From: Ampullaceana balthica | Lineage: Eukaryota > Mollusca > Gastropoda > Lymnaeidae | Assembly (NCBI GenBank): GCA_944989445.1 | Contig: CALYLW010001073.1 | Span: 124,001-188,000, forward strand | DNA: 64,000 bases | Reading direction: 5' to 3' | Shown: one piece after another, positions 3,058-61,263 of the stretch | Layout of the letters: each line of letters starts with the position of its first letter | Numbering within the stretch: the stretch's first letter is position 1 | Notes under the pieces: generated by a model | Databases searched by the model: none | What the model was told of the DNA's origin: nothing | Seen by the model: only the letters and a program-made list of their open reading frames with translations | Made by a program: the position numbers and the translations under genes

Positions 3058-3255
3058 ATCTTACCTGGGGTTCCACAAAGAACCGGATCTCTTTGTCAAC
3101 GAGATAACTTTGGGTTACGGGGAAAATGGGATCGTGCCGGGGAAAGTGATCTTACCTGGGAACAGTATTCCACAAAGAACCGCATCTCTTTGTCAACGAG
3201 ATAACTTTGGGTTACGGGAAAAATGGGATCGTGTCGGGGAAAGTGATCTTACCTG
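3058..3255. repeat. 97-bp tandem duplication
   Basis: Two adjacent copies, period about 97 bp, each containing TTCCACAAAGAACCG and ATAACTTTGGGTTACGG. A third copy begins at 3242 and stops at once. Confidence 0.75.
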
Positions 3256-12205: not shown

Positions 12206-12459
12206 ATGTTCGGTCAGTCATGCATCCTGGGTGGCTGTCTGGCCGAGATCGTCTTCTTCCTGTACAAGACAGGGGAGGCGATGTTGGACGCCGCGGTGCG
12301 ACCTTTCGTCATCAATGCCGTCTGCCACGACCTGACCCGTGACATGGTCATCGTGTCACATGACTGGACGCCCCGACAGGTGTCGTTCATGAATGGCACC
12401 CTGGATCCTTGTGATTATCTGGATGAGCTCCCTGGGATCGAGGCACCTGTACAAGCGAG
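12206..12459 (+). CDS. SLC46-like exon 1 (or first coding exon seen)
   Basis: Encodes helix 1 (LAEIVFFLYKTGEAML) and the first outer loop with MNGT (N-glycosylation site) and a CDYLDE segment, ending ...EAPVQA plus two bases. The phase 2 donor is GCGAG followed by GTAGGT. The methionine at 12206 is the first in frame; a TAA lies about 48 bases upstream in frame, and the stretch between could instead be reached by splicing. The last 20 bases of the exon are the founder of the 41-bp array that follows. Confidence 0.75.
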
Positions 12460-14118
12460 GTAGGTCTGGCGAGAATATCTGAGGCACCTGTACAAGCGAG
12501 GTAGGTCTGGCGAGAATATCTGAGGCACCTGTACAATTTAGGTAGGTCTGGCGAGAATATCTGAGGCACCTGTACAAGCGAGGTAGGTCTGGCGAGAATA
12601 TCTGAGGCACCTGTACAAGCGAGGTAGGTCTGGCGAGAATATCTGAGGCACCTGTACAAGCGAGGTAGGTCTGGCGAGAATATCTGAGGCACCTGTACAA
12701 GCGAGGTAGGTCTGGCGAGAATATCTGAGGCACCTGTACAAGCGAGGTAGGTCTGGCGAGAATATCTGAGGCACCTGTACAAGCGAGGTAAGTCTGGCGA
12801 GAATATCTGAGGCACCTGTACAAGCGAGGTAAGTCTGGCGAGAATATCTGAGGCACCTGTACAAGCGAGGTAAGTCTGGCGAGAATATCTGAGGCACCTG
12901 TACAAGCGAGGTAAGTCTGGCGAGAATATCTGAGGCACCTGTACAAGCGAGGTAAGTCTGGCGAGAATATCTGAGGCACCTGTACAAGCGAGGTAAGTCT
13001 GGCGAGAATATCTGAGGCACCTGTACAAGCGAGGTAAGTCTGGCGAGAATATCTGAGGCACCTGTACAAGCGAGGTAAGTCTGGCGAGAATATCTGAGGC
13101 ACCTGTACAAGCGAGGTAAGTCTGGCGAGAATATCTGAGGCACCTGTACAAGCGAGGTAAGTCTGGCGAGAATATCTGAGGCACCTGTACAAGCGAGGTA
13201 AGTCTGGCGAGAATATCTGAGGCACCTGTACAATTGAGGTAAGTCTGGCGAGAATATCTGAGGCACCTGTACAATTGAGGTAAGTCTGGCGAGAATATCT
13301 GAGGCACCTGTACAAGCGAGGTAGGTCTGGCGAGAATATCTGAGGCACCTGTACAAGCGAGGTAGGTCTGGCGAGAATATCTGAGGCACCTGTACAATTG
13401 AGGTAGGTCTGGCGAGAATATCTGAGGCACATGTACAAGCGAGGTAGGTCTGGCGAGAATAGCTGAGGCACCTGTACAATTGAGGTAAGTCTGGTGAGAA
13501 TATCTGAGGCAACTGTACAATTTAGGTAGGTCTGGCGAGAATATCTGAGGCACATGTACACGCGAGGTAAGTCTGGCGAGAATATCTGAGGCACATGTAC
13601 AAGCGAGGTAGGTCTGGCGAGAATATCTGAGGCACCTGTACAAGCGAGGTAGGTCTGGCGAGAATATCTGAGGCGCCTGTACAATTGAGGTAAGTCTGGT
13701 GAGAATATCTGAGGCACCTGTACAATTGAGGTAAATCTGGTGAGAATATCTGAGGCACCTGTACAATTGAGGTAGGTCTGGCGAGAATATCTGAGACACC
13801 TGTACAATTGAGGTAAGTCTGGCGAGAATATCTGATGCACCTGTACAATTGAGGTAAGTCTGGCGAGAATATCTGATGCACTTGTACAATTGAGGTAGGT
13901 CTGGCGAGAATATCTGAGGCACCTGTACAAGCGAGGTAAGTCTGGTGAGAATGTTTAGCTGACAGCAGATGTCATGTTTCCCTGCGAGTTTATCCCCCAC
14001 CCCCACCTCAAACAAGTTAAAATGATTTTAAAAAAAATATTTTGGAAAGTATTTTTTAAATATATTTTAACAATTCGTAGTAAGTCTGTCTGGGTCTGGT
14101 ACTTAAACAAAAAAAGAG

Positions 14119-14150
<32 letters not shown>

Positions 14151-17100
14151 TGAGAGGGAGTGAGAGAGAGAGTGAGAGAGAGAGGGAGAGGGAGAGAGAG
14201 TAAGAGAGTGTGAGAGAGAGTGAGAGAGAGAGAGAAAGAGAGAGAGAGTGAGAGAGCGTGAGAGAGAGAGAGTGAGAGAGAAAGAGAGAGTGCGGGAGAG
14301 AGTGAGAGAGCGAAAGAGAGAGAGATAGATGGGGTTAGATTATAAAATTAGCTTCTCTGGTAAAATTATTTACATTAATAATTTAGAAACTAGTAAAACA
14401 GTTGGTCGCCTCACAAGCTCAGGTGCGTGGAATCTGGCCCACGTTAAGCCACAGTAAACATATTTATAAATGACTATTGCTAAAAAGTTCAACGCTGACT
14501 TGGAGAGGGATGGGCGCCGCCAAGTCTACCATGCCCCGATAAAGTTCTAATGGAAACATTAAAACCCCCTACGGCAGTCTCCCCCATAAATATCACTTAT
14601 TTTTCTTTCAGCTGTCTTCACACGCATTAACGACTGGTAATAATCTTCTATTTCAGAGCTGCAACATTTCTGATAATTTACCGCATTCTTGTTAACGTAC
14701 CCGCCGTCTTTCTTGGCTTGTTCTGTGGGGCATGGAGTGACCAGACTGGTAGAAAGCTGCCTATGATGATACCAAGTTTAGGTAGTATTCTAGCCGTACT
14801 GTTATACATGCTTGGCCTCGTTCTGGTGGAACATACTCTTATGATCATCATGCTGGGAGCCCTTATTCAGGTGTGTGTGTGTATTCCAGTGGATTGTTGC
14901 AAAAACTCATACAGTTAAACTTTGTTTTAATTAAGATCTTATATAGTAAATATTTTAAAAAACATTTAATATTCATGCTTTAGTTTTCAAAATGGTATTC
15001 AGACAAGACCCTTAATTTAAAATAAGTAAATTATTAGTTGTAATTTTGGCTCATGCGTGTCCCAACAGTGAACAGATCTATATTTTAAAAAAATACTATG
15101 GCTTTCTTTAATATAAGCAAAATTAAATATTTTGATTTAAAAAAAAATCATAATTTTATCTTCCATAAGGGGCAGTCCATTTACGCCGTCACGCGATTTT
15201 GGCCGATTTTCCACCCCCCCCTCGTCATGAAAACTTAGACCCCCTCAGATATGACGTCACAAAGCTTTGACACCCCCCCCCTCATAAAAGCTATATTTTC
15301 TATTTGAAAAAAGAGCACGTTTGAAAACACATTCTTTTTTAAATCCCTTATGTTAATTAGCTTCACCGTCTTGTCTCTCTGTCGTGGACGCGCCCGCCCG
15401 CCCGTTCGTGGAAAAACAAACGTAAAAAATAATCCCTTTCCCGTGATTAGCACATAGACTTTTGTCACCTAACAATGTATTTTATCAAAATTTCAGATCA
15501 ATCGAATGTTCCGTAATTAAATTAATGAATTTGTTTAGATTATCTCTGTGTATCTATATTTAGCATGTAAATGTTTGCGCTAGAGCAGCTAGATAGACTG
15601 TCGCGCGGTGCGTATTATATTGAACATACTTTTTAAAATATTTTCCTGTCGCGCGGTGCGGTGATTATTATATTGAACATACTTTTATAATATTTTCCCG
15701 ATCTGTAAATGTTTATGCTAGTCTGTCGCACGGTGCGTATTATATTGAACATAATCAATACTTTTAGTTATGTCTCATATGTAAGGGATTTATAGTCAAA
15801 AACTTTGGTTTTACAGGTTGTTTGATTTGTCATTTAAGTATGTATTTAGTGTAAGTTTGCAATATCGTAACACACTTGAAGCCATGTAAGAAATCAAATA
15901 CTTTTATTTAAAGTTGCGAGTGTGGACCCCCCCCCCGTTTTCCCCCCTAGGTGCGTGACGTCATTTATGGACGGCCCATAACCACTTGAACAGGAAAAAA
16001 TAATAATCATGAAATTTAAAGCTTGAGAATAAGTGAAAAGAAAGTTCTCCAACTAATATGTTGGTACCTGTTGCTTCCGATAGTTTACACAAAGATTTTG
16101 TTGCCTTATCAAGGGAATAAGTCTGTGTTTTAATATATATTATTATATTAAACAATATAATTTGCAATTGTCACGCAAGTAGTGTCTGTCGTCCTGACGC
16201 TACTAATTTTAGAAAGCAGGGAAAACCAAATTACTGCACCAAAGCATCAAAAGGTGTGCAAATTAAATATGCGCTGTAAAAAAATATTATATGACGTCAT
16301 TGTTTTCGCTCATATTTTAATTTTGGAAAAGGGATCAATGTAAAAAGAGGATTTGATGATGGTTAATTATAAACTAAAAAAAACAAAAAGGGGGCCGTAG
16401 CGCCGCACCCCTATTATAAAATACTTTGTGTACACTTAAGAAAGTTTAATATTTCGTATTTATCAAACAAGGACAAGTTAGTTGGGCTTTTGAAAAAGGT
16501 CGGCGCCGTAGGCGCCCTAAAAAAAGTGCAATTTTTAATAAAATAAATAGATTTCACCTGAAAACTCACGTCATTTTTGACGGGTGATACGCTAGTTAAA
16601 CAATATAATTTGCAATTGTCACGCAATTACTGTCTGTCAGTCAGTCCTGACGCTACTAATTTTAGAAAGCAGGGAAAACCAAATTACTGCACCAATGCAT
16701 CAAAAGGTGTGTAAATTAAATATGCGCTGTACAAAAAATAGTATATGACGTCATTGTTTTCGCTGATATTTTAATTTTAGAAAAGGGATCAATGTAAAAA
16801 GAGGATTTGATGATGGTTAATTATAAAATAAAAAAAACCAAAAGGGGCGCCCATTATAAAATACTTTGTGTACACTTAAGAAAGTTTAATATTTCGTATT
16901 TATCAAACAAGGACAAGTTAGTTGGGCTTTTGAAAAAGGTCAGCGCCGTAGGCGCCCTAAAAAAAGTGCATTTTTAATAAAATAAATAGATTTCAGCTGA
17001 AAACTTCCGTCATTTTTGACGGGTGTACGCTAGTAATAATAATAATCGGCATCCTTCCATCTCGCGAGACGATGGTGCATCACCGTAGGGTTGTGTTGCA

Positions 17101-20100
17101 TTTCCTCGAGTGGCTGTGCAGTCCTATCATTTCTTGGTGCAGGGCTTTATGGCCCACTTGTTGAGTGGAACTCTAATATCCACGCACCCAGTGGAGAAGG
17201 AAGGCCGTGACGGGATAGCACCTATTTGTCTGGGGGCTGCCAAGATTGAGGCAGGCGGTGGCTGTCCAGTGAGATTTTGGTATTCTCTCCCACCGTCGGT
17301 AACTGCTGCTTCCCGTGTTTTGTCGACATCCAGAGGTGATGCAAGCCTGGGCGGGTATTATGGAGAATTAGCTGCTGCCCATACAGCATATCACCCCTCT
17401 CCACGTCAATGGTGTACCAAGTGAACGACTTGCGTCGATTGGTGTCGCAGGAGCTGCTGGAATGTACTTTTATGTATAGACCGCCTGTAGGTGCTCCATT
17501 TCCTGTTTTTCTGTCAGGGTTTACTCCCTTAGCCTTTCCCGAGTAGTGGGTGTGGCCGCAGGGCAGCTGAGGTTTGAAATCGAGTTTCCTTCTCCTAGAT
17601 GAACTACCAGCCAAGGTTAACGAGCATCATCTACCCTTAGGGAGCTGAGTAAACTCGAGGCCAGCACCAGGAATCGACCCCGTGACCGATTTTTTAAAGA
17701 GTCTCGGTACCACAGCGCATTATCACTTAGACCACCATATAATTATATATATATATATACATATACAGACACATACACATATATATTAGGGCTGGTACTT
17801 ATTTTTTGTTCGATTAATCGGAAAACGATGTAATCGATTAATTTCGATTAATTATATTTTTATTACGCATATATAGATCCCGTTAAGTCGTGATTAATTT
17901 TTTGTGTGTGCGTGAAATCGGTTAAGTCACGGTTATTTCATGGCTCCCAAATTTTCTGACGTAACACAGCAAATTCTTTCTGCTATGCAAGAAATAAGGA
18001 AGAAAAACCTTTTTGTTTACGTATGTTCGTCTAAATAAATAATAATAATACGAAGGAAAAGTATGGAAGTAACAAAGAACATAAATTATTACTAAATTGG
18101 AAGAAAGAAAAAAAGAAATATTTTCTTAAATTTTAAACGAATTTTAATCGATCAAATTAATTTTAATCGATTAAATTTTTAACGATTAATCGATTAATTA
18201 ATCGTTAAATTATATATGAAAGTAAAATAAACCATCAACTTTCCATAGGGAATTCTTGGTAAAAGCTCCGTCATCACAATGGCGGTCAACAGTTACGTCA
18301 GTGACACGACATTTAAGGAGGACCGGACCAGGAAGTTGGGCAAACTCCTGGCCATGAACTTCTTTGGTCTATTCGTAGGTGGGTCTCTGTCAGTCTAGTA
18401 GGTGGGTCTCTGTCAGTCTAGTAGGTGGGTGGGTCGCTGTCAGTCTAGTAGTGGGTCTCTGACAGTCTAGCAGGTGGGTCTTTGTCAGTCTAGTGGGTGG
18501 GTCTCTGTCAGTCTGGTAGTTAGGTCTCTGTCAGTCTAGTAGGTGGGTCTCTGTCGGTCTAGTAGGTGGGACGCTGTCAGTCTAGTAGGTGGGTCTCTAC
18601 CAGTCCCAACTTTCACCAACCAGTCATTTCGTTTTATCATCTAGTCTCATTTAATAGCTCTTCAATTTCTATGTGGTTAGTTGGTCTACTGATGTGGTAT
18701 AAATATCTTATCTTATCCTATCTATACAGACGCTCCTTCTATGCAGATGATAATTGCGTCCACAAACCATGAAAGATGATTTATTTTCTTAAGCTATGTT
18801 TTAAGCGCTTTATTCAGAGAATATGTATCATATCCTATACTTTAATTACCTGCATTTTACTAATATGTAATAATATCATGTAGTTTAACTACTGTTGTTC
18901 GATGATGAATATATAATTATATTTTAAGTTAAATTCTTGTATGAGTAGAGAAGCATACAATATAATATAATAAAAAATAAAATCCAATAGTTTAAGTTGA
19001 TTGAGTGCACAGTTAAACCCAGTTTTTACAGTGCTCCTATGAGTAAATATACATTCCCCAAAAGGTTCTTTACTTGCCGGCGCCCTACAGGACATCGCCA
19101 ACCTCCAGACCACATTTGTTGTGGTCAGTGCATTCCACGCGGCGTCCGTGCTCACAGTCGTCATGTGCATGGACGAAAGCGTCCACGACAAGATGCCCAG
19201 TGAGGAGGGGTTTGATACCAACTACCACGTGACACCTGGTTTATTCAGGTAACCAACGACGATCACAGTATTTCATCAAAGTATTTTAACAGAATGTGAT
19301 TGGTTCAAATTTACAAAACATCGCTGTAGAGCTTTCTTGTAAGATTTACGTTAAAATTAACTTGCCCTGGCTTTCATCAATTGACCTGAAACTTTCACCT
19401 TAAATCAACCATTTATTTAATGATATAGGCGATATGTTAGTAAACATTATGTCAATGTTAAGGAAATAAAATCCAATACTACTCGAGCGTCTTTTGTGGT
19501 CAAAGAGCCCAAGAGTTAAATCTTGATAAACGGCTTTAAAATTAGATGGATATTTTATTTACAGTTTTGATAATGCTACTAGTAATAATTATGCACATTT
19601 TTGTGGAGAAAATGTATGAACTCGTCAATTACAAAACTCTCTTGATAAAACGTTAATTTAGAATATCAAATTATTGCTACAGTCTGTGGCTTTCATACTA
19701 CGTGACAATAGATTTCAGGGTTAAATCTATTTTTAGATATCTAGAGCATGATAAATGTAAGAAGTCGCAAATTTCCAGATCGATAGCGAAGTTATAGTTT
19801 TACAGAAATATTTTTGCTTAAGTTTATTTATTTTTTGGACAAGCTTATCGTTACATACAGAATTGAAATTTCCCATTATAAAATCATCTTTGCCACCGTT
19901 CAAATCAATTGTTGCTATAACATAACCGTGTCTACAACAGCTCGAGGGGTCTCAAAGACTCGGTGTGGGCCCTGGTCAAACCTCGAGAAGAAGGGAAGAG
20001 AACTCTGGTGGTGGTGGCCTTCATGGCCATGTTCCTCAACCAGACGTGCAAGGTTGGCGAGCAAGACGTCACTGTCCTCTTTGTCCAGGTAATACAATGA

Positions 20101-23100
20101 CGCTCACTACTTCTCATCTCCCGAAATATCTCTGTGACGTTGCCCTTTGTTACCATTGGTGAGTTAAGATCTCTGTAGCAAGCCAGTGCCTTTGACGCCA
20201 ATGGCCAGTAAGGGAATGCAGTTTGACTTAATGCCATTTTTAAAATCATGAATAATGTTTTAGATAGAAACACCATTCACTAAAGTGAGATGCCCATACA
20301 TTTAGAATGTCCCAACCAAAGTTTTCATCTACGGTTACCGTTAAAATGTCCTCATAAAAATGTCCAGTTAAAAAGTTAACCGAATATAACCGAATATATA
20401 ATTTTGACCAGAAACCACCATTGTCCTGGGACGCCTCGGGTTACGGCTATTTGTTGTCAGTGGACTACGCCGGCATGGGGATGTGTCTGCTGCTCTTACT
20501 TCCGGTCCTGTCCACATTCCTCCACATCAGCGACATCGCCATCATCCTGCTGGGCCTGAGCTGCAAGCTGGTCAGGACGGTCTGGGCGGGCTTCTGTACC
20601 CACACCTGGATGGTCTACGTCTCAGTTATCATTGGGTCAGCGGGTGGCATCGTTACGTCAGGGTTTGAGGTGAGTCTTTGTTGTCCAACCTTGACACCCA
20701 TTGAATAATAGAATCATGGGAAGAATTCATTCAGTAGATATTTTACAACTAATTCACGAATGCTATACTACAGTCGCTCTTTTCTTGTATGCTGGATTAC
20801 TTCCATATCGGTCCTGTATGTTCATCATGATAATCTTAGATCAATGTCATGTTTTAATACTTGGTATACTTCAATAGCCAAAAGATTGGCATGCAAGTGT
20901 TCATACCCCAAGCCCCCTCTCTCAGCAGTGGCTATGTCGGGACAGGTAGTTAGGGCAGAACAATTTTTGTTAAGTTTGTATAAACATGGATTCTTGTTTC
21001 GGTGGAATCTTAGAACTAAATTGTCACCTACTTCGCGTTGCTCCATTCCCCTTGAAATATGACACACTTAAATACCTATGAGTAAAATAAATGTTGGCAA
21101 TAAAATTACACTAAATTGATTGGATTAAACACAAATCTTGCAGATCAATTCTCAGCAAAGCTGTCAGTGACGACGAGACGGGTAAAATATTCGCCCTGGC
21201 ATCCAGTGCCGAGACCGCTGCCAAGTTGATCGGTTCCCTCGTGTTTGTCAACATCTACGCCGCTACGTTGGACATTTGGGCGGGGCTGGCCTACATCTCA
21301 GCGGCACTCGTCACCCTGGTACTCATTGTTCTGATGGTGAGTTGATTAGATCCAAGCATGTTATGTTGGTCGGAACCAAGTATAGAAGCAATCATTGCTG
21401 CTCTAATGATAAGTTGATTAGATCCAAGCATGTTATGTTGGTTGGAACCAAGTATAGAAGCAATCATTGCTCTAATGATAAGTTGATTAGATCCAAGCAT
21501 GTTATGTTGGTTGGAACCAAGTATAGAAGCAATCATTGCTCTAATGATAAGTTGATTAGATCCAAGCATGTTATGTTGGTTGGAACCAAGTATAGAAGCA
21601 ATCATTGCTCTAACGATAAGTTGATTAGATCCAAGCATGTTATGTTGGTGGGACCAAGTATAGAAGCAATCATTGCTATAATGATAAGTTGATTAGGTTT
21701 TGTGTTACCCTAGAAAGACAGAAACTACCAGACGATGGTGTGGTTTGTATTGGGGGAGAGGGAGCTTGGGAGAGCCGGTTAAATAAAACGTATATTAAAT
21801 TTGTGCAAGACATGTGCAAAAGCTGTGGTAAAGACTGTCACTCAATGATAGGACTGCACAGCCACACAAGAAAGTGCAACCAGAACCAACGGTGATGCAG
21901 CATCGTCTGCGAGACGGAAGGATGCCGACTATATTAAATTTAGAAAACCATGATCTCAGTCAGTGCTTTTATTGTTATCTGATTCAAAGAATATTTTTTT
22001 GGTATTGTGTGTGTTTTTTTAAAGTCGCGAGTAACGATTTATGTCATTGATCAATGTAAGAAGACAATCCAAACTTGCGTATATCAACATTGCTTTTTGG
22101 TATCCAAAGCTGAAATCAAATATTTGTTCAATTCTCGCCATCCATCAATATCGTGATAAACGCGGGCGGTGATCGTGAGGGCTGCTCATGAAACTCAGCT
22201 TCAGATGGTCGTCTGGATAATTATTGGATTAATCTCTTCCCAGCAGCGTAGCGTGGGTATGCCCTCCCTCGCTACGCCATGTCTCTTACCGCGGTAATAA
22301 TGCGTCTAGAAAAATGTGGGGTTTATTTATTAAATAGTGATTTTTGTGTGTAATATCATGTTTAACCAGAGGCACAGGGTCTAAAAAAATTCATTTTTAA
22401 ATCCCTTATATTAACTTCGCGGCCGTCTCATCATCTCATCATCTCATGGGCTGGGCGGGCGGAAAAAGAAAAGTCGAAAATGACCCACTTCCCGTGATTC
22501 GATCGAGCTGAAATTTGGCACACGGACCCGTCTGACCTAACAATGCATCGTATCAAAATTTCAGATCGATCGAACGTACCGTAATTAAATTAATGCATTT
22601 TTAGTTTATCCTAATATGAGGTATGTAATTTAAATTCACGGTTTGTTATTGTTTTTTTGCCACGTGAAAGTTTGAGCTGACGCATTGAGGCGACCCAACG
22701 AAGCGACGGGGTGCTTTTGTTTACATTTTACGTGTCACGCTGAGCTCAGTCAAGCGAATCGGTGACCAGACTTTTCCCCTCTCCCCCCTCCCACCCACCC
22801 CTCCCCCCCTAGGGTTATGAAGCAAACTTGAGTTAAGACAGATTCAGTCTGTAAATGTTTGAAAATAATCAATACTGTTAGTTATGTCTCATATATAAGG
22901 GATTTATAGTCAAAAACTTTGTTTTTACGGGTTTGTTTTATTAAATCCCTTATATTAACTTCACCGGCGTCTCTCTCTCTCGCTCTCTGTCTCTGGGCGG
23001 GCGGAAAAACAGAAGTAAAAAATGACCCACTTCCCATGATCCGATCGAACTGAAATTTGGCACACGGACCCGTCTAACCTAACAATGCATCGTATCAAAA

Positions 23101-24425
23101 TTTCAGATCGATCGAACGTACCGTAATTAAATTAATGCATTTTTAGTTTATCCTTATATGAGGTATGTAATTTAAATTCACGGTTTGTTATTGTTTTTTT
23201 CCCACGTGAAATTTTGAGCTGAGCATTGAGGCGACCCAACGAAGCGACGGGCGCTTTTGTTTACATTTTACGTGTCACTCTGAGCTCGGTCAAGCGAATC
23301 GGTGACCAGACTTTTCCCCTCTCCCCCTCCCACCCACCCCTCCCCCCCTAGGGTTATGAAGCAAACTTGAGTTAAGACAGATTCAGTCTGTAAATGTTTG
23401 AAAATAATCAATACTGTTAGTTATGTCTCATATATAAGGGATTTATAGTCAAAAACTTTGTTTTTACGAGTTTGTTTTATTAAATCCCTTATATTAACTT
23501 CACCGGCGTCTCTCTCTCTCTCTCTGTCTTGGGCGGGCGGAAAAACAGAAGTCAAAAAATGACCCAACTTCCCATGATCCGATCGAACAGAAATTTGGCA
23601 CACGGACCCGTCTAACCTAACAATGCATCGTATCAAAATTTCAGATCGATCGAACGTACCGTAATTAAATTAATGCATTTTTAGTTTATCCTTATATGAG
23701 GTATGTAATTTAAATTCACGGTTTGTTATTGTTTTTTTCCCACGTGAAATTTTGAGCTGATGCATTGAGGCGACCCAACGAAGCGACGGGGCGCTTTTGT
23801 TTACATTTTACGTGTCACTCTGAGCTCGGTCAAGCGAATCAGTGACCAGACTTTTCCCCTCTCCCCCTCCCACCCACCCCTCCCCCCCTAGGGTTATGAA
23901 GCAAACTTGAGTTAAGACAGATTCAGTCTGTAAATGTTTGAAAATAATCAATACTGTTAGTTATGTCTCATACATAAGGGATTTATAGTCAAAAACTTTG
24001 TTTTTACGGGTTTGTTTTATTACAAATAGTGTCTGAAGGGAGATCATGACCTACATTGATGCCCTAGAATAAACGTATTCTTATTTATAAGGCGGTCTCC
24101 ACTGCGCCCTACAATACTACAATATGTTGTCCCACACCAAAATGTACCTCATTAAAATCAATGTTGTTGCACCGTTATTCGTTGCTGTCTTCTTCGTAAG
24201 GTCTGGCTGTACAAGGAGCAACAGTTGGTCTGCAACCACAGCTTCATTACCGGCTACAACAGCATCACCGGCTCCTGGGACGGACATGGCGCCCCGGCCA
24301 ACAACTACCCCACCATCTGCGAGCCCGACAAGAGCCCGGACGAGAAGGAGTCGCAGTCCCTTTTACCCCTCAGCTCCAGCTCTGCCAGCCTGATAGCCAT
24401 CCCTGCCTCGAGTCCGTGTGAATAG
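12206..24425 (+). CDS. SLC46-type major facilitator transporter, eight exons
   Basis: Exons are 12206-12459, 14657-14870, 18249-18378, 19065-19248, 19941-20088, 20412-20669 (or to 20662), 21144-21336 and 24201-24425. All introns are GT-AG. The product is about 530 residues with roughly 12 membrane helices. After helix 2 comes the MFS motif GAWSDQTGRK. The first extracellular loop has an N-G-T glycosylation site and a cysteine. YVSDTT, a GSLLAG-type helix 5 and SKAVSDDETGKIFAL are typical of the SLC46 family, which moves folates or related small molecules with protons at the cell surface or lysosome. The tail contains ESQSLL, an acidic dileucine-type sorting signal suggesting endosome or lysosome. 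The substrate cannot be told. Three introns start with arrays copying the donor, and the exon 6/7 junction has a frame problem. The 5' start is uncertain: an in-frame stop lies a little upstream, so either this methionine or a spliced upstream exon is possible. Confidence 0.85.
12440..13950. repeat. 41-bp minisatellite spanning the exon 1 donor, about 37 copies
   Basis: Each unit is a copy of the last 20 bases of exon 1 joined to the first 21 bases of intron 1, so each unit carries a splice donor. Early units read GAG then GTAGGT; about half of the units, including a nearly identical run from about 12769 to 13290, read GAG then GTAAGT, a stronger match to U1. The distal part is more diverged (GTGAGAAT, ACAATTGAG variants). 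Since 41 is not a multiple of three, all three minus-strand frames stay open by chance, giving spurious ORFs up to 542 codons. Confidence 0.95.
14113..14335. repeat. AGAT/AGAG microsatellite in intron 1
   Basis: Four or five GATA units followed by about 200 bp of imperfect GA repeat with interspersed TGAGAG and GGGAGA. Confidence 0.9.
14657..14870 (+). CDS. SLC46-like exon 2
   Basis: Acceptor TTTCAG. One base completes the arginine codon from exon 1. Encodes helix 2, the MFS loop motif GAWSDQTGRK, helix 3 and part of helix 4, ending GALIQ in phase 0. The donor is CAG followed by six GT units, so a dinucleotide run begins exactly at the splice site. Confidence 0.9.
15169..15978. mobile_element. 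TIR element, third copy, with R540 inside (intron 2)
   Basis: Left end GGGGCAGTCCATTTACGCCG and right end TGACGTCATTTATGGACGGC are inverted repeats. TAA flanks both sides (15166-15168, 15979-15981). R540 occupies 15335-15826, between a T run and GTCATTTAAG. The copy at 3603-6297 lacks R540 at this place and gives the empty-site form. Confidence 0.8.
15335..15826 (+). repeat. R540 copy within the TIR element
   Basis: Runs from AAATCCCTTATGTTAATTAG to AAGGGATTTATAGTCAAAAA plus about 25 bp. Internally it holds a GCCCGCCCGCCC run, the core TTTCAGATCAATCGAATG, and a short CGCGGTGCGTATTATATTGA motif present three times. Confidence 0.65.
16150..16595 (+). mobile_element. Helitron-like non-autonomous element, copy 1 (intron 2)
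   Basis: The 3' end has a small hairpin (CGTCA, T loop, TGACG), then GGTGATACG and CTAG, followed by T. This is the layout of a Helitron 3' terminus (hairpin, short spacer, CTRR, T of the target). The 5' end is unresolved. Internal landmarks are TGCACCAAAGCATCAAAAGG, ATGACGTCATTG and GGCGCCGTAGGCGCC. Confidence 0.5.
16598..17033 (+). mobile_element. Helitron-like element, copy 2, directly after copy 1
   Basis: About 436 bp, closely similar to copy 1 and in the same orientation, with CCGTCA/TGACGG hairpin and terminal GTGTACGCTAG then T. Head-to-tail arrangement of two copies is as seen here; whether it arose by insertion or unequal crossing-over is not known. Confidence 0.5.
17034..17740 (-). 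mobile_element. Long tRNA-derived SINE with a LINE-derived 3' tail
   Basis: On the minus strand the head has box-A-like TGGTCTAAGTGATAATGCGC and box-B-like GGTCGATTCCT, internal RNA polymerase III promoter elements. About 500 bp of body follow, then a tail ending in an ATT repeat. The last 100 bp match the end of the LINE fragment at 21693-21935, including ATGATAGGACTGCACAGCC and GGAAGGATGCCGA. Sharing a partner LINE's 3' end is how SINEs borrow its reverse transcriptase. The body has open stretches (17222-17614 minus), but I treat them as non-coding. It lies in intron 2. Confidence 0.75.
17787..18215. repeat. AT-rich repeat with many ATTAATCG/CGATTAAT motifs
   Basis: Starts TAGGGCTGGTACTTATT, a typical start of miniature hAT-type elements, and has clusters of ATTAATCGATTAAT at both ends that could pair. 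No clear target duplication, so the element type is not established. Confidence 0.4.
18249..18378 (+). CDS. SLC46-like exon 3
   Basis: Acceptor TTCCATAG. Encodes the helix 4 end and the loop with NSYVSDTTFKEDRTRKLG, a segment typical of SLC46 proteins, and the start of helix 5 (MNFFGLFV). It ends one base into a codon; the donor is GTAG followed by GTGGGT, the start of a 23-bp array. Confidence 0.9.
18379..18608. repeat. 23-bp minisatellite starting at the exon 3 donor, about 10 copies
   Basis: Unit GTGGGTCTCTGTCAGTCTAG plus TAG. The first unit begins at the first base of intron 3. Each unit ends TAG, so each boundary recreates TAG followed by GTGGGT, matching the real donor. Copies differ by a few substitutions and small indels. 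Confidence 0.9.
18700..18775 (-). mobile_element. LINE 3' tail fragment (intron 3)
   Basis: ATCTTATCTTATCC followed by ACAGACGCTCCTTCTATGCA; same family and orientation as 184-345. Confidence 0.6.
19065..19248 (+). CDS. SLC46-like exon 4
   Basis: Acceptor CCCCAAAAG. Begins GT to complete a glycine codon, then SLLAGALQDIANLQTTFVVV (helix 5 end, loop, helix 6) and the central loop DESVHDKMPSEEGFD. Ends ...LF plus AG, phase 2; donor GTAACC. Confidence 0.9.
19941..20088 (+). CDS. SLC46-like exon 5
   Basis: Acceptor CTACAACAG. Encodes SRGLKDSVWALVKPREEGKR, the central cytosolic segment, then helix 7 ending GEQDVTVLFVQ. Phase 0 at the end; donor GTAATA. Confidence 0.9.
20412..20669 (+). CDS. SLC46-like exon 6
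   Basis: Acceptor TTTTGACCAG. Encodes KPPLSWDASGYGYL, helices 8 and 9 and the start of helix 10 (SVIIGSAGGIVTSGFE). The strongest donor is GAG followed by GTGAGT at 20670, which leaves phase 0, but exon 7 needs phase 2. An end at 20662 (GG followed by GTTTGA, a weak donor) would restore the frame. Confidence 0.85.
21144..21336 (+). CDS. SLC46-like exon 7
   Basis: Acceptor ATCTTGCAG, the only AG in the preceding 60 bases. Coding frame starts after one base: SILSKAVSDDETGKIFALAS, then helices 11 and 12 (LVTLVLIVLM). Ends ATG followed by GTGAGT. The last 13 bases of the exon are copied in the 69-bp array that follows. Confidence 0.88.
21337..21692. repeat. 69-bp minisatellite spanning the exon 7 donor, about 5 copies
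   Basis: The genuine junction CATTGTTCTGATG/GTGAGTTGATTAG is copied in each unit as CATTGCTCTAATG/ATAAGTTGATTAG, 22 of 26 bases the same. In the copies the donor GT has become AT, so they should not be used. Period 72, 69, 69, 69, 68 bp. A period of three times 23 keeps chance ORFs open on both strands. Confidence 0.9.
21693..21935 (+). mobile_element. LINE 3' fragment: end of ORF2 plus 3' UTR
   Basis: Reading frame to a stop at 21895 ends with CKSCGKDCHSMIGLHSHTRK, a cysteine-histidine finger placed at the C-terminus of several mollusc and other invertebrate LINE polymerases. The 3' UTR has CATCGTCTGCGAGACGGAAG. The SINE at 17034-17740 shares this end. The 5' end is truncated against the 69-bp array. 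Confidence 0.65.
22399..24021 (+). repeat. R540 family: three tandem copies of about 540 bp (intron 7)
   Basis: Units start at 22399, 22943 and 23482. Each begins AAATCCCTTATATTAACTTC, then a CT-rich run and GGGCGGGCGG, a core TTTCAGATCGATCGAACG, a C-rich run (CCCCTCCCCCTCCCACCC), and near its end ATATAAGGGATTT, the inverse of its start, plus 36 bp ending TTTACGGGTTTGTTTTATT. No ORF. The near-identity of units 2 and 3 suggests recent duplication. It is the most abundant family in the window, with single, tandem and inverted copies. The class is unknown to me. Confidence 0.85.
24201..24425 (+). CDS. SLC46-like exon 8, C-terminus and stop
   Basis: Acceptor TTCTTCGTAAG, phase 0. Begins VWLYKEQQLVCN after helix 12 and continues as a 74-residue polar tail ending TAG at 24423. 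It has two or three cysteines, an ESQSLLPL segment (acidic dileucine type) and a serine-rich run. Polyadenylation signal follows at 24453. Confidence 0.9.
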   Translation, partial: VWLYKEQQLVCNHSFITGYNSITGSWDGHGAPANNYPTICEPDKSPDEKESQSLLPLSSSSASLIAIPASSPCE

Positions 24426-33899: not shown

Positions 33900-34737
33900 T
33901 CTATGTGAACACTGTACAAGAGATTTTAAGAAGGATGTTTCGTGGAAATAAGTATTGGATATTTCCAAAAAGGAAAGTATTCATTAAAATAAGAAATATT
34001 AACAGCTATCGTATTTTTTGAATATTCAAGTTCGTAAGAAGCTGTGAATAAACTTTTGTGGTTCAATGAAAATACAAGTATATTTCAAAATGGCGGCATA
34101 CAGGCACATGGTCACGGCGTGTGGTATATACAACTAGGTCGCCTAGTTTGTTCTACGTCACAGTCGACGACAGTACAAGCATACTACACAGTGCTGGAAT
34201 CTGCGTCGTGTAGGCTTACTGAATGGTCACACGGTGAACATATATAGGTCGTGACGTCAACAAGCTCAATGCTAGTTGATTCCAGGAAATATTTGTAAAC
34301 ATAACCTGGAACTTGGAAGGCTATGGACTATTAATTATGAAGTGTGAATTATAAATAAAGGAAAGGAATTTTTATCCATTCATTGTGTGAAGAGTTTGAT
34401 AATTGCAATTTTGGATTAATGGAGTGAACTAAATTGTTTAAAAACTACTCGAATATTGAAATTTTAACCAAGTGAATTTTATTCAAAACGATTGGACCAT
34501 TAGATATATTTTGTCAATCTGAGGGAGCGTATATATAAAGTATACTAAAGATCCCGTGTGAGGATTCTTTTGTTGTCTCATCTTGTCAATACTAGATTTC
34601 ATGGTTTAGACGTGTCACTTATTTGAACTTAACATTTTGAATTCAAGATTTTTCATTTGGAAGATTTATAACTTTATCAACATATACCTAAATTCCTTAC
34701 CAAATTGCTTAACTCATATTATTCAATCAAACAAAAC

Positions 34738-35946
34738 ATGGATTACTACAAGGAATTCACTGCCATAGCTAAAGAGATCGGACTAAAGGGAAAAGAAATG
34801 AGAGATTTCATTGAAGAAAAAGTAAGCATTGCTGAAGAAAAAGCAAGAATTGCTGAAGAAAAGGAACAGCTAAGAAAAGCTGAAGAAAAAGAAAATCAAA
34901 GAATTGCTGAAGAAAAAGAGAAGCAAAAGCAAAAAGAAGCTCAAGAAAAAGAACAGCTAAGAAAAGCTGAAGAAAAAGAAAATCAAAGAGAGGCTGAAGA
35001 AAAAGAAAGGCAAAAACTCATAATTGAAAGAAAAGACAGAGCGGAAAAGAAAGAACTTGAACAACTTGCAATTGATAAGTTAAAACTACAACTTGATTTA
35101 GATAGTAGAGGCCAAAATCCTGGTAATGAAACAAATAGAAGGTCAGCACCAAGGGATACTATCAGAGTAAGAAAATATGATAGCCAGAAAGAAAAAATGG
35201 ATGTTTATCTAGATTATTTCGAATCCATAATGGCTATGAAAGGCTATAATGAAGAAGATTGGCCAGCACAATTGATGACTCAACTAACTGGAGAAGCATT
35301 TGAAGCTTATAACAGTATAGCCAAAGAAGACAAAAGCATATATAAGAATGTCAAAAAGGCACTTCTATGTCATTTTGGAAAGTCAGAAAATGATTATAGA
35401 AGAGAATTTCATGAAATGAGAATCAAGATGGACAAAGATCCACAGATCATAGTACATGAAGCACAAGTCAAACTAACAAAATGGCTGGAACTGACAGCAA
35501 TAGATACGAGCAATCCAAAGGCCATACTAGACATGGTGTTAATTGACAAGTTTTTAGAAAATGCAACACCAACTCTATTCACATATTTAACTGACAAGAA
35601 AGTTCGTACTCAAGCAGAGCTAACAAATGCATTACGAACATTCAAAGACTCTCATCCGAATGTGGAAATGGATAAGAGACAAGACATATTTGCAGCAATA
35701 CAAATTAAAAGTCAAGAAAAAAGGCAAGGTATGAGAAACCAGAGTCTGCCAAACCAAGGCAACAGACAGTCTATTTGCTGGTACTGTAACAAGCCAGGAC
35801 ATATGGCGAAGCAGTGTTACCACAATAAAGGACAACCAAATAGGGTGTCACCTAATGGCAGCCCTATAAGAAAGAAAACAGAAGAAAGATCAAGACAAGG
35901 TCATTTTGAAAGCAAAGGTAGAAGATCATGGGAGAGGCAGATATAA
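34738..35946 (+). CDS. Retrotransposon gag
   Basis: About 402 residues from the methionine at 34738 (MDYYKEFTAIA); an earlier in-frame ATG at 34705 is less likely. Residues about 25-115 are a highly charged coiled coil of repeated AEEKEN and RKAEEKE blocks. A capsid-like region follows with DWPAQLMTQLTGEAFEAYNS. Near the end is a zinc knuckle, CWYCNKPGHMAKQC (C-x2-C-x4-H-x4-C), which binds the RNA genome. Ends by stop; the next frame overlaps by 41 bases, so pol could be reached by a programmed shift. The coiled-coil repeats look like recent internal duplications. Confidence 0.9.
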   Translation: MDYYKEFTAIAKEIGLKGKEMRDFIEEKVSIAEEKARIAEEKEQLRKAEEKENQRIAEEKEKQKQKEAQEKEQLRKAEEKENQREAEEKERQKLIIERKDRAEKKELEQLAIDKLKLQLDLDSRGQNPGNETNRRSAPRDTIRVRKYDSQKEKMDVYLDYFESIMAMKGYNEEDWPAQLMTQLTGEAFEAYNSIAKEDKSIYKNVKKALLCHFGKSENDYRREFHEMRIKMDKDPQIIVHEAQVKLTKWLELTAIDTSNPKAILDMVLIDKFLENATPTLFTYLTDKKVRTQAELTNALRTFKDSHPNVEMDKRQDIFAAIQIKSQEKRQGMRNQSLPNQGNRQSICWYCNKPGHMAKQCYHNKGQPNRVSPNGSPIRKKTEERSRQGHFESKGRRSWERQI

Positions 35947-36754
35947 TCATGACTCCAGATACAGAAATCATGATCAGCCCTGGAGAAGGAATGACTACCA
36001 AGAGGGAGATAATAAAGGAAAAATGAAACAAGAAGAATCACAATCTAGTAATACTGTGGCCACCATAAAGGATCATGGTCCACTGAAATTTTACCCAGTG
36101 TACATCAATGATCGAAAGTGTATGTGCCTTCGTGACACTGGATGCACAACAATTGTGGTACATGAGAGGATGGTGAAAGAAGAAGAGTATGATGGGAAAA
36201 AAGACACACTGATAATGGCGGATGGCACAAAGAGAGAGTGTCCAACTGCAATTTTCACCATCAACTCACCCTGGCTTCAAAGGGAAGTTAGAGCCAGAGT
36301 CTTACAAGAGGCCATTTGTGATCTCATCATAGGGAACATTGAAGGTGTGGTGGACAATACTGATGAAGTATTCAAAGCTTGGCATGACAACAGCCATCAA
36401 TTATGTGCTACTGCACAAACAAGAGCCACCACAAAAAGAAAAGAGAACATAGACATTGAAGTTGATGAGAAACTTGAAATAGGAAGCCAACTGATGTCCA
36501 AACAAGAGTTCAAACAACTACAAGAAGAAGATAACACAATCAGGGAAATAAAAATGAAACTTATCAAAGACAATGAAACAGGCCACAACAAAAATTACAA
36601 GCTAGATAAAGGCATATTAATAAACATTGCACAGGAAGGTACGTGCAAAAGAGTGGTTCTTCCCAAAAAGTTACAGGAAACCATTATTAAAATGACACAT
36701 GACAGCCCTTTAGGGTGGGACATATGGGCGCCAAGAAAACAATTGCTACAATAG
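35906..36754 (+). CDS. Retrotransposon protease and start of integrase (frame broken at its end)
   Basis: Overlaps the gag end in another frame. A basic linker precedes the aspartic protease with LRDTGCTTIVVHE (catalytic D-T-G) and ICDLIIGN, a partner of the active-site fold. A linker with KQEFKQLQEEDNTIREIK leads to the H2C2 zinc domain of integrase, beginning at THDSPLG. One base too many near 36715 shifts the frame, and the ORF runs on to a false end. Confidence 0.88.
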   Translation: MKAKVEDHGRGRYNHDSRYRNHDQPWRRNDYQEGDNKGKMKQEESQSSNTVATIKDHGPLKFYPVYINDRKCMCLRDTGCTTIVVHERMVKEEEYDGKKDTLIMADGTKRECPTAIFTINSPWLQREVRARVLQEAICDLIIGNIEGVVDNTDEVFKAWHDNSHQLCATAQTRATTKRKENIDIEVDEKLEIGSQLMSKQEFKQLQEEDNTIREIKMKLIKDNETGHNKNYKLDKGILINIAQEGTCKRVVLPKKLQETIIKMTHDSPLGWDIWAPRKQLLQ

Positions 36755-38103
36755 CAGAAAACCTTTACTGGCCTAAAATGGCAAGGCAGATAAAAGAATA
36801 CATCAAGGCTTGTACAGTGTGTCTACGACATAATCCCAAAGATGGGAGGCACACAGCACCCATACAATCATCTGACAAGGCAAACTTTTTATTCGAGAAA
36901 ATCGCTATAGACCTGATAGGACCATTCAAAAAGATGTCAAAGAAGAAACATATGTATGCTCTAACCATAGTGGATATAGCCACCAGATGGGGTGAAGCTA
37001 TCCCACTGAAGCGAATAGATGCAGAAAATATATGCAACGCATTACTCAATGTTTTTAGCAGATATGGTTTCCCTCAAACACTTCTGTCGGACAATGGCAG
37101 CCAATTCAAGGGTCAGATGACACAAGCCATTATGAAAATGTTAAACATTACACAAGTACACAGCACAGTGTACCATCCACAGTCAAATGGAGTGATTGAA
37201 AGACTAAACAAAACCATCAAGAATATGCTATTAAAGGTGACAGTGGACCATGAGGACAGATGGCATGAATATTTACCCTTAGTACTATTTGCATACAACA
37301 GCAGCAAACATGAAAGCACTGGCTTTAGTCCTTTTGAGTTAATGTTTGGCCAAAACCCTGCAAGTCCCTTAAAGAATTTCAAAGAAAGGCTCATAAGCAA
37401 ACAAGATGCCATACAGGACAGATATCAGCTGATGTCAGACACTAGAGATAAAATACTTTACAGTATTGAAGCAGCAAAACAAAGACTAATCAAGCAAAGT
37501 ACAAGACATAGAGAAATCAAAAATAGACACAGACATTTGAGAACATTTGAGCCTCAACAACAAGTCCTAGTATGCTTACCAAACACAAAGAATGAAATCA
37601 CATGGGAAGGTCCATACAATATTGAAGAGAAACTTAGTGATGTCACATATAGTGTCAATATCAAAGGGACATGTAAAAAATTACATATTGACAACCTAAG
37701 AGCATATGATGACAATAAAGAAGGAAAGCAAACTGTTAATGTCATCATCAAGGTAAATGATGAAAATGACAATGCAATGAAAATGAACAATCTTGACAGA
37801 GAAAAAATATCATCTGACATACCAGATAATATGAAACACAGAGTGATAAAATGTTTTCAAAAATACAAAGGTGTCATAACAAAAGAAACAGGAAACACAA
37901 AAACTGTGACTCACAAGACACAAGTATTGGAACATGAACCCTTCAAGACCAAAGTATACCCTATTCCAATGGCATATAGAGACACAGTAAGGCAAGAAAT
38001 TGACTACAAAGAAAACAAAATAAGACAAGCAGTTGAAGCTAACTATACCTCACCAACTGTCATAGTAAAAAAAGAAGAATGGAAGGATTCGACTGTGCTG
38101 TGA
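36715..38103 (+). CDS. Retrotransposon integrase and linker to reverse transcriptase
   Basis: Continues the zinc domain (HMGAKKT, CTVC) and then the catalytic core with D (AIDLIGPF), D (LSDNGSQF) and E (NGVIERLNK); 35 residues separate the last two, the classic D-D-35-E. A C-terminal chromatin or DNA-binding-like part has FEPQQQVLVCLP and WEGPYNIEEKL. The frame then continues through a linker into the reverse transcriptase N-terminus (YPIPMAYRDTVRQEID, TVIVKKEE) and is broken near 38090. Integrase upstream of reverse transcriptase is the unusual order. Confidence 0.9.
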   Translation: MGHMGAKKTIATIAENLYWPKMARQIKEYIKACTVCLRHNPKDGRHTAPIQSSDKANFLFEKIAIDLIGPFKKMSKKKHMYALTIVDIATRWGEAIPLKRIDAENICNALLNVFSRYGFPQTLLSDNGSQFKGQMTQAIMKMLNITQVHSTVYHPQSNGVIERLNKTIKNMLLKVTVDHEDRWHEYLPLVLFAYNSSKHESTGFSPFELMFGQNPASPLKNFKERLISKQDAIQDRYQLMSDTRDKILYSIEAAKQRLIKQSTRHREIKNRHRHLRTFEPQQQVLVCLPNTKNEITWEGPYNIEEKLSDVTYSVNIKGTCKKLHIDNLRAYDDNKEGKQTVNVIIKVNDENDNAMKMNNLDREKISSDIPDNMKHRVIKCFQKYKGVITKETGNTKTVTHKTQVLEHEPFKTKVYPIPMAYRDTVRQEIDYKENKIRQAVEANYTSPTVIVKKEEWKDSTVL

Positions 38104-38113
38104 CTACAGACAG

Positions 38114-39022
38114 TTGAATAATATTACAAAATTGGACCATGAACCTATTGGAGACCCAAGAGACATTATAGACATAATTGGTACTTCCAGAATATTCACT
38201 ACATTTGACTTAAACAGAGGTTTTTGGCAGATTAACATGGATCCTGATTCTATAAAATACACTGCATTCATAGCCATGGATGAGGTGTATGAATGGTTAG
38301 TAATGCCATTTGGACTGGTCAACAGTACAGCCACTTTTAGCAGATTTATGAAAGTGATGCTAAAAGGAATTCCAAATGTGGTACATTATGTCGACAACAT
38401 ATGTATCCACACTAAAGATTGGGAATCACATATTCATACACTTGAAGCTGTACTGGATAGACTCAAGAAACATAATGTGACAATCTCACCAGAAAAGATC
38501 AACATTGGAAAGAAGTATATAGATTTTTTGGGATACAGAATAGGAGGTGGTGCAGTCACTCCTACTGCAGAAAATGAACACAAGATATTCAATCTGTCAG
38601 TCCCAAAATCTAAGAAACAAGTGCAAGCCCTGCTGGGACTATGTAACTTTTACAGACCTTTTATTGCAAATTATGCAGAAATTGTTCACCCACTAACAGA
38701 AGTCACAAAAACCAAAGATATTCGAAAATTTCAGTTTCCAGGAGATTGCCTCAAAGCATTAGAGAACATTCAGGAGGAATTTAGGAAGAAACCCATCTTA
38801 GTTACACCTCAATGGGACAAACCTTTCATTGTTTCTACTGATGCATCGTCCATTGCATTAGGAGCGTGCCTCATGCAAGAACATGATGGTATCCTACATC
38901 CTATACAGTATCTTAGCAGAAACTTGACCAAAACAGAGTGTAACTACAGCACCATAGAGAGAGAGAGAATGTCTAGCCATAGTGTGGGCTCTACAAAAAC
39001 TTCAAAAATACCTTCTAGGTAG
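38114..39022 (+). CDS. Retrotransposon reverse transcriptase and start of RNase H
   Basis: Starts in LNNITKLDHEP right after DYRQ in the preceding bases. Motifs: FTTFDLNRGFWQI (first catalytic D), MPFGLVNSTATFSRFM, then YVDNICIHT, where the usual Y-x-D-D is Y-V-D-N, so a metal-binding aspartate is lost. FLGYRIGGG and the connection follow, then RNase H with STDASSIALGACLMQ. A GA-repeat slip near 38960 shifts the frame. Confidence 0.9.
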   Translation: MNNITKLDHEPIGDPRDIIDIIGTSRIFTTFDLNRGFWQINMDPDSIKYTAFIAMDEVYEWLVMPFGLVNSTATFSRFMKVMLKGIPNVVHYVDNICIHTKDWESHIHTLEAVLDRLKKHNVTISPEKINIGKKYIDFLGYRIGGGAVTPTAENEHKIFNLSVPKSKKQVQALLGLCNFYRPFIANYAEIVHPLTEVTKTKDIRKFQFPGDCLKALENIQEEFRKKPILVTPQWDKPFIVSTDASSIALGACLMQEHDGILHPIQYLSRNLTKTECNYSTIERERMSSHSVGSTKTSKIPSR

Positions 39023-43910: not shown

Positions 43911-43924
43911 TAAAAGTTTTACGT

Positions 43925-45935
43925 GGTGTGTCTTTACTGTATTATATTGTGATGTGGTGTGTCTTTACTGTATTATATTGTGATGTGGTGTGTCTTTATT
44001 GTAATTATATTGTGATGGTGTGTGTCTTGACTGTATTATATTGTGATGTGGTGTGTCTTTACTGTATTATATTGTGATGTGGTGTGTCTTTACTATATTA
44101 TATTGTGATGTGGTGTGTCTTTACTATATTATATTGTGATGTGGTGTGTCTTTACTGTCTTATATTGTGATGTGGTGTGTCTTTACTGTATTATATTGTG
44201 ATGTGGTGTGTCTTTACTGTATTATATTGTGATGTGGTGTGGGTTTACTGTATTATATTGTGATGTGGTGTGTCTTTACTGTATTATATTGTGATGTGGT
44301 GTGTCTTTACTATATTATATTGTGATGTGGTGTGTCTTTACTATATTATATTGTGATGTGGTGTGTCTTTACTGTATTATATTGTGATGTGGTGTGTCTT
44401 TACTGTATTATATTGTGATGTGGTGTGTCTTTACTATATTATATTGTGATGTGGTGTGTCTTTACTATATTATATTGTGATGTGGTGTGTCTTTACTGTA
44501 TTATATTGTGATGTGGTGTGTCTTTACTGTAATTATATTGTGATGTGGTGTGTCTTTACTGTAATTATATTGTGATGGTGTGTCTTTACTGTATGATATT
44601 GTGATGTGGTGTGTCTTTACTGTATTATATTGTGATGTGGTGTGTCTTTACTATATTATATTGTGATGTGGTGTGTCTTTACTGTATTATATTGTAATGT
44701 GGTGTGTCTTTACTGTATTATATTGTGATGTGGTGTGTCTTTACTGTAATTATATTGTGATGTGGTGTGTCTTTACTGTATTATATTGTTAGGTGGTGTG
44801 TGTCTTTACTGTCTTATATTGTGATGTGGTGTGTCTTTACTGTATTATATTGTGATGTGGTTTGTCTTTACTGTATTATATTGTGATGTGGTGTGTCTTT
44901 ACTGTATTATATTGTGATGTGGTGTGTCTTTACTGTATTATATTGTGATGTGGTGTGTCTTTACTATATTATATTGTGATGTGGTGTGTCTTTACTATAT
45001 TATATTGTGATGTGGTGTGTCTTTACTGTAATTATATTGTGATGTGGTGTGTCTTTACTGTATTATATTGTGATGTTGTGTGTCTTTACTATATTATATT
45101 GTGATGTGGTGTGTCTTTACTGTATTATATTGTGATGTGGTGTGTCTTTACTGTATTATATTGTGATGTGGTGTGGGTTTACTATATTATATTGTGATGG
45201 GGTGTGTCTTTACTGTATTATATTGTGATGTGGTGTGTCTTTACTATATTATATTGTGATGTGGTGTGTCTTTACTGTAATTATATTGTGATGTGGTGTG
45301 TCTTTACTGTAATTATATTGTGATGGTGTGTCTTTACAGTATGATATTGTGATGTGGTGTGTCTTTACTGTATTATATTGTGATGTGGTGTGTCTTTACT
45401 ATATTATATTGTGATGGGGTGTGTCTTTACTGTATTATATTGTAATGTGGTGTGTCTTTACTGTATTATATTGTGATGTGGTGTGTCTTTACTGTAATTA
45501 TATTGTGATGTGGTGTGTCTTTACTGTATTATATTGTTAGGTGGTGTGTGTCTTTACTGTCTTATATTGTGATGTGGTGTGTCTTTACTGTCTTATATTG
45601 TGATGTGGTGTGTCTTTACTGTCTTATATTGTGATGTGGTGTGTCTTTACTGTCTTATATTGTGATGTGGTGTGTCTTTACTGTCTTATATTGTGATGTG
45701 GTATGTCTTTACTGTCTTATATTGTGATGTGGTGTGTCTTTACTGTCTTATATTGTGATGTGGTGTGTCTTTACTGTCTTATATTGTGATGTGGTGTGTC
45801 TTTACTGTCTTATATTGTGATGTGGTGTGTCTTTACTGTCTTATATTGTGATGTGGTGTGTCTTTGCTGTCTTATATTGTGATGTGGTGTGTCTTTACTG
45901 TCTTATATTGTGATGATGTGTATTACAAGCTAAGT
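43925..45935. repeat. 31-bp minisatellite (about 64 copies) with 748-bp higher-order repeat
   Basis: Unit TGATGTGGTGTGTCTTTACT plus GTATTATATTG. Variant landmarks recur 748 bp apart: TATGATATT at 44592 and 45340, and TTAGGTGG at 44789 and 45537. After 45550 nearly all units carry GTCTTATATT, a homogenised block. Confidence 0.95.
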
Positions 45936-47704: not shown

Positions 47705-48292
47705 TTAAAAAGACTCCAGATCCTCACTGATTCCGTAACGGATCAACTCCAGATCCTCACTGATTCCGTATCGGATCAACTCCAGATCCACACTGATTCC
47801 GTATCGGAACAACTCCAGATCCACACTGATTCCGTATCAGTCAACTCCAGATCCTCACTGATTCCGCATCGGATCAACTCCAGATCCACACTGATTCCGT
47901 ATCGGATCAACTCCAGGTCCACACTGATTCCGTATCGGGTCAACTCCAGGTCCACACTGATTTCGTATCGGATCAACTCCAGGTCCACACTGATTCCGTA
48001 TCGGATCAACTCCAGATCCACACTGATTCCGTATCGGATCAACTCCAGGTCCACACTGATTCCGTATCGGGTCAACTCCAGGTCCACACTGATTCGGTAT
48101 CGGGTCAACTCCAGATCCACACTGATTCCGTATCGGGTCAACTCCAGATCCTCACTGATTCCGTATCGGGTCAACTCCAGATCCTCACTGATTCCGTATC
48201 GGATCAACTCCAGGTCCACACTGATTCCGTATCGGGTCAACTCCATGTCCACACTGATTCCGTATCGGGTCAACTCCAGGTCCACACTGCTT
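47705..48292. repeat. 33-bp minisatellite, about 18 copies
   Basis: Unit TCCACACTGATTCCGTATCG plus GATCAACTCCAGG. The period is eleven codons, so the minus strand stays open for 201 codons. I do not regard this as a gene. Confidence 0.92.
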
Positions 48293-48756: not shown

Positions 48757-48905
48757 AGAACAGACACATTAGAACAAGCTGAACTGCGTTAAAATAACAG
48801 ACACATTAGAACAAGCTGAACTGCGTTAAAATAACAGACACATTAGAACAAGCTCAACTGCGTTAAAATAACAGACACATTAGAACAAGCTCAACTGCGT
48901 TAAAA
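48757..48905. repeat. 37-bp minisatellite, four copies
   Basis: Unit CAGACACATTAGAACAAGCT plus GAACTGCGTTAAAATAA. Confidence 0.9.
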
Positions 48906-48962
48906 TTTTTCTACCACTAATTAAACAACGACTATGTTTATGAAGACAAAAGTGATGGGATA

Positions 48963-49418: not shown

Positions 49419-49419
49419 T

Positions 49420-52301: not shown

Positions 52302-52306
52302 GTGTC

Positions 52307-60906: not shown

Positions 60907-61263
<357 letters not shown>

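Follow-up and report, generated by a model that had tools for sequence, protein, structure and literature searches.

The stretch of DNA analyzed in this study (the window) comprises 64,000 nucleotides of the gastropod Ampullaceana balthica (contig CALYLW010001073.1, positions 124,001 to 188,000). At 12206-24425 it contains a gene encoding an SLC46/PCFT-like transporter, three of whose introns begin with tandem arrays that extend across the exon-intron junction. The gene product matches the Pfam family MFS_1 (4.5e-17) and the proton-coupled folate transporter in PDB entry 7bc6 (4.4e-13), and its closest protein is P0001 of Lymnaea stagnalis, with 96% identity over query exons 1-6. All eight exons and seven introns were placed by tblastn with P0001:

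12206..12459, plus strand, exon 1 (94%)
14657..14870, plus strand, exon 2
18249..18378, plus strand, exon 3
19065..19248, plus strand, exon 4
19941..20088, plus strand, exon 5
20412..20669, plus strand, exon 6, where the frame appears to slip near the end in comparison with L. stagnalis
21144..21336, plus strand, exon 7
24201..24425, plus strand, exon 8 with the stop codon (P0001 residues 461-534, 86%)

Intron 7 extends to 24200. This apparent slip, at the joint of exons 6 and 7 (window 20664-21144), where the L. stagnalis protein is intact, is either an assembly error or real. A search of the 1.097-Gb assembly revealed no further close copy of the gene, only four matches on another contig that are 25-41% alike. 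The repeats at the donors are as follows (here and below, a slash marks the junction):

12440..13952, plus strand, array at the intron 1 donor, 41 bp x 37; the unit combines the final 20 nt of exon 1 with the initial 21 nt of the intron
14871..14882, plus strand, (GT)6 run at the intron 2 donor, absent from the repeat finder's list
18375..18605, plus strand, array at the intron 3 donor, 23 bp x 9.9; the unit includes the junction GTAG/GTGGGT
21323..21696, plus strand, array at the intron 7 donor, 69 bp x 5.4; copy 1 includes the final 14 nt of exon 7

A sequence-only reading of this DNA had proposed that introns 1, 3 and 7 open with arrays of 41-, 23- and 69-bp units that include or abut the donor, and intron 2 with a GT run. 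The arrays, their unit lengths and the GT run were all confirmed, the latter being counted as trivial. The units indeed include the donor, but they also take in 20, 4 and 14 nt from the end of the respective exon, and the array starts lie that far inside it. The interval given for the pattern, 18379-21692, omits the array of intron 1.

The exon ends inside the units belong to the coding sequence and can be aligned with the protein of L. stagnalis. The VQ-x-R encoded by the exon 1 end is shared by four of the six relatives compared over this region (P0001, P0002, P0003, and P0007; not P0005 and P0011). Since the exon part of the unit is coding, the splice junction is the likely source of each array, which would have grown from there into the intron. 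In all three introns an in-frame stop occurs soon past the first donor, at 12461, 18396, and 21343, respectively, and therefore the first donor is the one fitting the protein, in agreement with that of L. stagnalis.

The copies retain the donor to a different extent. In intron 1, GT directly follows the exon-end sequence in 37 of 37 copies, nearly all of which contain GAG/GTRAGT. In intron 7, the junction GT is present in one of six copies, namely the first, and in intron 3 the donor signal is mixed. Compared with copy 1, the intron 1 array has 14 differing sites in total in copies 1-19 and 50 in copies 20-37; being more uniform, its exon-proximal end is probably the younger one. The complete row of mostly strong donors in intron 1 could mean that such arrays are kept for a function, that is, that they hold the U1 small nuclear ribonucleoprotein and so protect the transcript or tune splicing. 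We consider this very improbable, as copies 2-6 of intron 7 lack GT, those of intron 3 are mixed, and homogenisation within an array could explain conserved donors without selection. Two longer duplications were observed in the same gene. In intron 7 (window 22394-24022), a ~540-bp unit, above the period limit of the repeat finder, is repeated in tandem about three times with copies ~96% alike, and intron 2 has a 448-bp tandem duplication, 92% alike (window 16148-17046).

The unit sequences of introns 1, 3, and 7 are mutually unrelated. This, together with the lack of a second close gene copy in the search above and the arrays found at other genes, supports the proposal that several junctions were affected by independent events. 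Introners are a family of mobile introns, and introner-like insertion of mobile introns or satellite copies at donors would also place arrays at several donors of a genome. Unlike such insertions, related copies at unrelated genes were not seen at the loci looked at: each unit carries the end of its own exon, and the intron 3 array matched its own locus only, among the 40 candidates scored out of 1018 and leaving simple repeats aside. With the units of these loci being locus-specific, the mobile-intron reading was rejected as very improbable.

Most probably, the arrays are exon-intron-junction minisatellites of the kind named mirage in amphioxus, formed by duplication across a junction and tolerated via the outermost splice site. 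A replication or repair slip would tandemly duplicate a short segment straddling the splice donor, and the duplicated segment would then expand by unequal exchange or slippage. As splicing from the outermost (first) donor would still yield the old mRNA, the new copies would become intron and be tolerated, and this tolerance may be the reason for their persistence. Direct support comes from the junction-spanning unit, its coding exon part, the absence of the array in a related myosin copy (see below), and the presence of arrays at other genes.

In amphioxus, mirage minisatellites of the Adh, globin (BflGb6 and BflGb9), TnC, and PGBD5 genes are reported to span exon-intron borders at the 5' or 3' side, to vary in copy number between haplotypes, and to have AG/GT signals in many of their copies, though not in all (PMC3087553, PMC3902484); reverse transcription PCR in the globin paper suggests regular splicing. 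The snail arrays likewise span junctions (introns 1, 3, and 7, and the myosin loci L054, L064, and L065 described below), and have GT in many but not all copies, as counted above. Both boundaries are hit in the snail as well, the donor in L054 and the acceptor in L064 and L065, with donors only in the SLC46-like gene. The snail arrays differ from the amphioxus mirages in the host, a gastropod mollusc, in the 37 copies of intron 1, in the involvement of three donors of one gene, and in the signs of genome-wide recurrence; further, splicing is predicted here from sequence. No junction-spanning arrays outside amphioxus were named among the hits listed by searches of the open-licence literature. 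Another similar process is intron gain by tandem duplication, where, in the potato RdRp case, a tandem duplication across an intron-exon boundary supplies the splice signals (PMC4974935). The snail duplications also cross a junction with splice signals, but here an intron was lengthened and a new one is not claimed, the protein fitting that of L. stagnalis.

The chance of such a pattern was estimated by random placement. When four arrays of these unit sizes were placed randomly in the gene, at least three were donor-spanning in 8e-5 of 200,000 trials, or 5.4e-4 with acceptors counted too; with the 540-bp array added as a fifth, the values are 1.3e-3 for donors and 6.4e-3 for any junction. As the gene was picked for its pattern, all these values are too small and only suggestive. 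For the genome background, 20 stretches of 10 kb were drawn at random from positions 10-100 kb from contig starts, which gave 197.5 kb once N was excluded. Arrays constitute 19.7% of the bases in this sample, at 585 per Mb, and random seeding predicts an array across ~1.4% of junctions. Scored with an assumed donor weight matrix, the array units of the sample, which has low power for donor arrays at ~3 such arrays per Mb, show no donor enrichment: 4 of 73 have a donor of at least 4 bits (null 2.65), and 0 of 73 have one of at least 6 bits (null 0.52). As far as this sample shows, array growth in the genome is thus mostly unrelated to donors. These data favor the possibility that donors are not preferred at all: arrays would arise randomly in an array-rich genome, a few units would span a donor or an acceptor by accident, exonic ones would be lost by selection, and three in one gene would reflect luck and the choice of the example. 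The random placement of four arrays in the gene argues against it, three at donors being rare among the trials.

An additional set of exons was chosen without regard to arrays, namely the first 20 stop-free myosin-head matches by E-value, with ~350 bp of flank on each side. A donor-spanning array was found in one of them (L054, 32 bp x 8.1), and acceptor-spanning arrays were found in two (L064 and L065, which come from closely related copies of a gene and perhaps reflect one event). The acceptor-spanning 78-bp unit holds ~40 nt of coding exon and is present in 2.1 copies in L064 and 4.0 copies in L065 (on C719 and C208, respectively). Six further arrays of at least 2.5 copies and two of ~2 copies are near myosin junctions without spanning them. 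At the 1.4% rate, an array at one or more of 20 donors is expected with P 0.25, consistent with the absence of donor preference, whereas at least three in 40 junctions has P 0.019, which speaks against it, though the arrays of L064 and L065 probably stem from a single event.

One myosin copy, L056, is closely related to L054 (586 identities, 27 mismatches, and 4 gaps up to the donor) and shares its exon end and donor but not the array. Right past the donor, the L056 intron aligns to the L054 sequence that follows the array (score 86, while 300 shuffles reached at most 30). Since the array is absent from L056 and the intron resumes at the array's end, the L054 array would have arisen after the two copies diverged or have been lost in one of them, gain being favored. 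Copy number differs between the gene copies on C208 and C719 (8 versus none, 4.0 versus 2.1, and ~4 versus 1), a comparison in which alleles and recent duplicates are not distinguished. The last of these pairs, L059 and L060, has a 44-bp intronic unit that is single in one gene copy and repeated ~4x in the closely related other.

Genome-wide, three AGGTRAGT motifs spaced 20-50 bp were sought in the assembly. The raw matches, which overcount long arrays, number 16842 versus 11514 for the reversed motif, 10583 for the permuted motif GAGTRATG, and 11608 for the reverse of the latter, a 1.45-1.6 fold excess not normalised for single-site frequency; single sites number 74614 for AGGTRAGT and 87646 for the reversed motif. 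The acceptor motif TTTNCAGG shows no excess, with 3568 raw matches versus 6420 reversed, again not normalised for single-site frequency.

Arrays were counted on contig C1, among the matches listed (the first 100 places per motif). For AGGTRAGT, the first 3.55 Mb contain 10 arrays, 9 of them in the first 2.917 Mb. The reversed motif has 3 arrays in 2.917 Mb, including a 19-kb satellite, and GAGTRATG has 6 in 8.82 Mb, none in the first 3.55 Mb and with those on C2-C4 left out. The AGGTRAGT array density is 2.7x and 4.1x that of the two permuted motifs, with the AGGTRAGT and reversed-motif densities slightly raised, as both lists end inside an array. From array density and motif frequency, 1.1-1.5 AGGTRAGT arrays and 1.5-1.7 reversed ones are expected in 2.917 Mb. 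The AGGTRAGT arrays exceed the reversed ones (9 of 12, P 0.04) and those of GAGTRATG (10 in 3.55 Mb versus 6 in 8.82 Mb, P 0.005). Extrapolation from 10 per 3.55 Mb yields ~3,100 AGGTRAGT arrays in the genome, a rough figure based on one contig and including arrays that are not at exons. The 19-kb satellite reached through the control pattern, at C1:2878537-2897812, has a 27-bp unit.

All 10 AGGTRAGT arrays listed on C1 were opened, and the upstream peptides of eight were scanned against Pfam. Four of the 10 follow an exon supported by Pfam above the cut-off:

L042, C1 array, Homeodomain 1.7e-11 (profile 1-45 of 57); the final 20 nt of the exon are part of the repeated unit
L046, C1 array, Glyco_transf_7N 3.1e-18
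L047, C1 array, Glyco_transf_7C 3.1e-14
L050, C1 array, Sad1_UNC 2.3e-5
L049, C1 array, EB 0.0074, below the cut-off
L048, C1 array, MTP_lip_bd 0.054, below the cut-off
L043, C1 array, 43-codon open frame, no Pfam match
L045, C1 array, short open frame, no Pfam match
L041 and L044, C1 arrays, upstream peptides too short for the scan

The Homeodomain and Glyco_transf_7N/7C exons presumably belong to LIM-homeodomain and beta-4-galactosyltransferase genes, respectively. These observations suggest that similar arrays recur at other genes of the same genome, and the proposal that this is a general way of intron lengthening is partly upheld by the motif counts on C1.

In 11 arrays, three of them C1 arrays without Pfam support, the exon part of the unit varies from 4 to 27 nt, and the donor position in the unit is compatible with a uniform distribution (Kolmogorov-Smirnov P 0.31). 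The acceptor arrays and this variable place of the donor disfavor a cut at the donor itself, and with the 200-kb sample showing no donor enrichment, donor-specific seeding is only possible. Donor-seeded growth as such, as put forward in the sequence-only reading, stays a hypothesis. The absence of any donor preference agrees with the variable donor position and is disfavored by the C1 counts; we find it quite plausible while leaning slightly the other way.

Donors could instead be hot spots where something at the junction makes tandem duplication start more often; candidate causes are transcription-linked damage, R-loops, U1-bound nascent RNA, and a G/T-rich strand. The motif-level excess, both in raw matches and in C1 array density, favors this possibility, as do the lack of a raw excess for the acceptor motif and the three donors hit in one gene. 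On the other hand, acceptors are spanned in the two related myosin copies, the register is not fixed, and the array counts come from one contig with list ends slightly favoring AGGTRAGT and the reversed motif. Moreover, AGGTRAGT sites must be gene-richer, and introns may simply be array-richer. On balance we regard donor hot spots as possible but rather unlikely. Slightly more doubtful still is a broader version, in which donors are the birthplaces of minisatellites: a process tied to transcription or splicing would seed duplication at exon ends, and thousands of introns, a number extrapolated from one contig, would begin with arrays of donors that look functional and lengthen 5' first.

Several points weigh against the interpretation of the arrays as mirage-like minisatellites. 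The use of the first donor is deduced from the fit to the protein; myosin donors were called by a script, which found a donor in 17 of the 20 exons; six of the 10 opened C1 arrays have no Pfam match above the cut-off; and among 18 arrays in the window (period at least 15, at least 2.5 copies) the consensus has a donor of ~4 bits or more only in introns 1 and 3.

Elsewhere in the window, a 97-bp unit x 1.9 at 3071-3255, whose minus strand carries CAG/GTAAGA, is possibly another junction-spanning duplication. The long open frames at 34672-39022 resemble a Ty3-type retrotransposon, with what we take by eye to be zinc knuckle, integrase, and reverse transcriptase motifs. A 31-bp array of 64 copies at 43923-45915 has one strand that is strongly G/T. 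A Pfam search for further genes at 48000-63000, in two of the three plus-strand frames, gave one match, Apolipoprotein, with 23.7 bits versus a cut-off of 90.

The arrays described here look like those of the amphioxus mirages, now in a mollusc. If this is true, junction-spanning minisatellites would be a recurring route of intron growth rather than an amphioxus oddity. Intron 1 provides a natural test of splice-site choice, with 37 near-identical donors of which only the first precedes an in-frame stop. Finally, donor arrays can be scored in any long-read genome, and thus the growth or creation of introns by tandem duplication, an old idea, would become directly countable.

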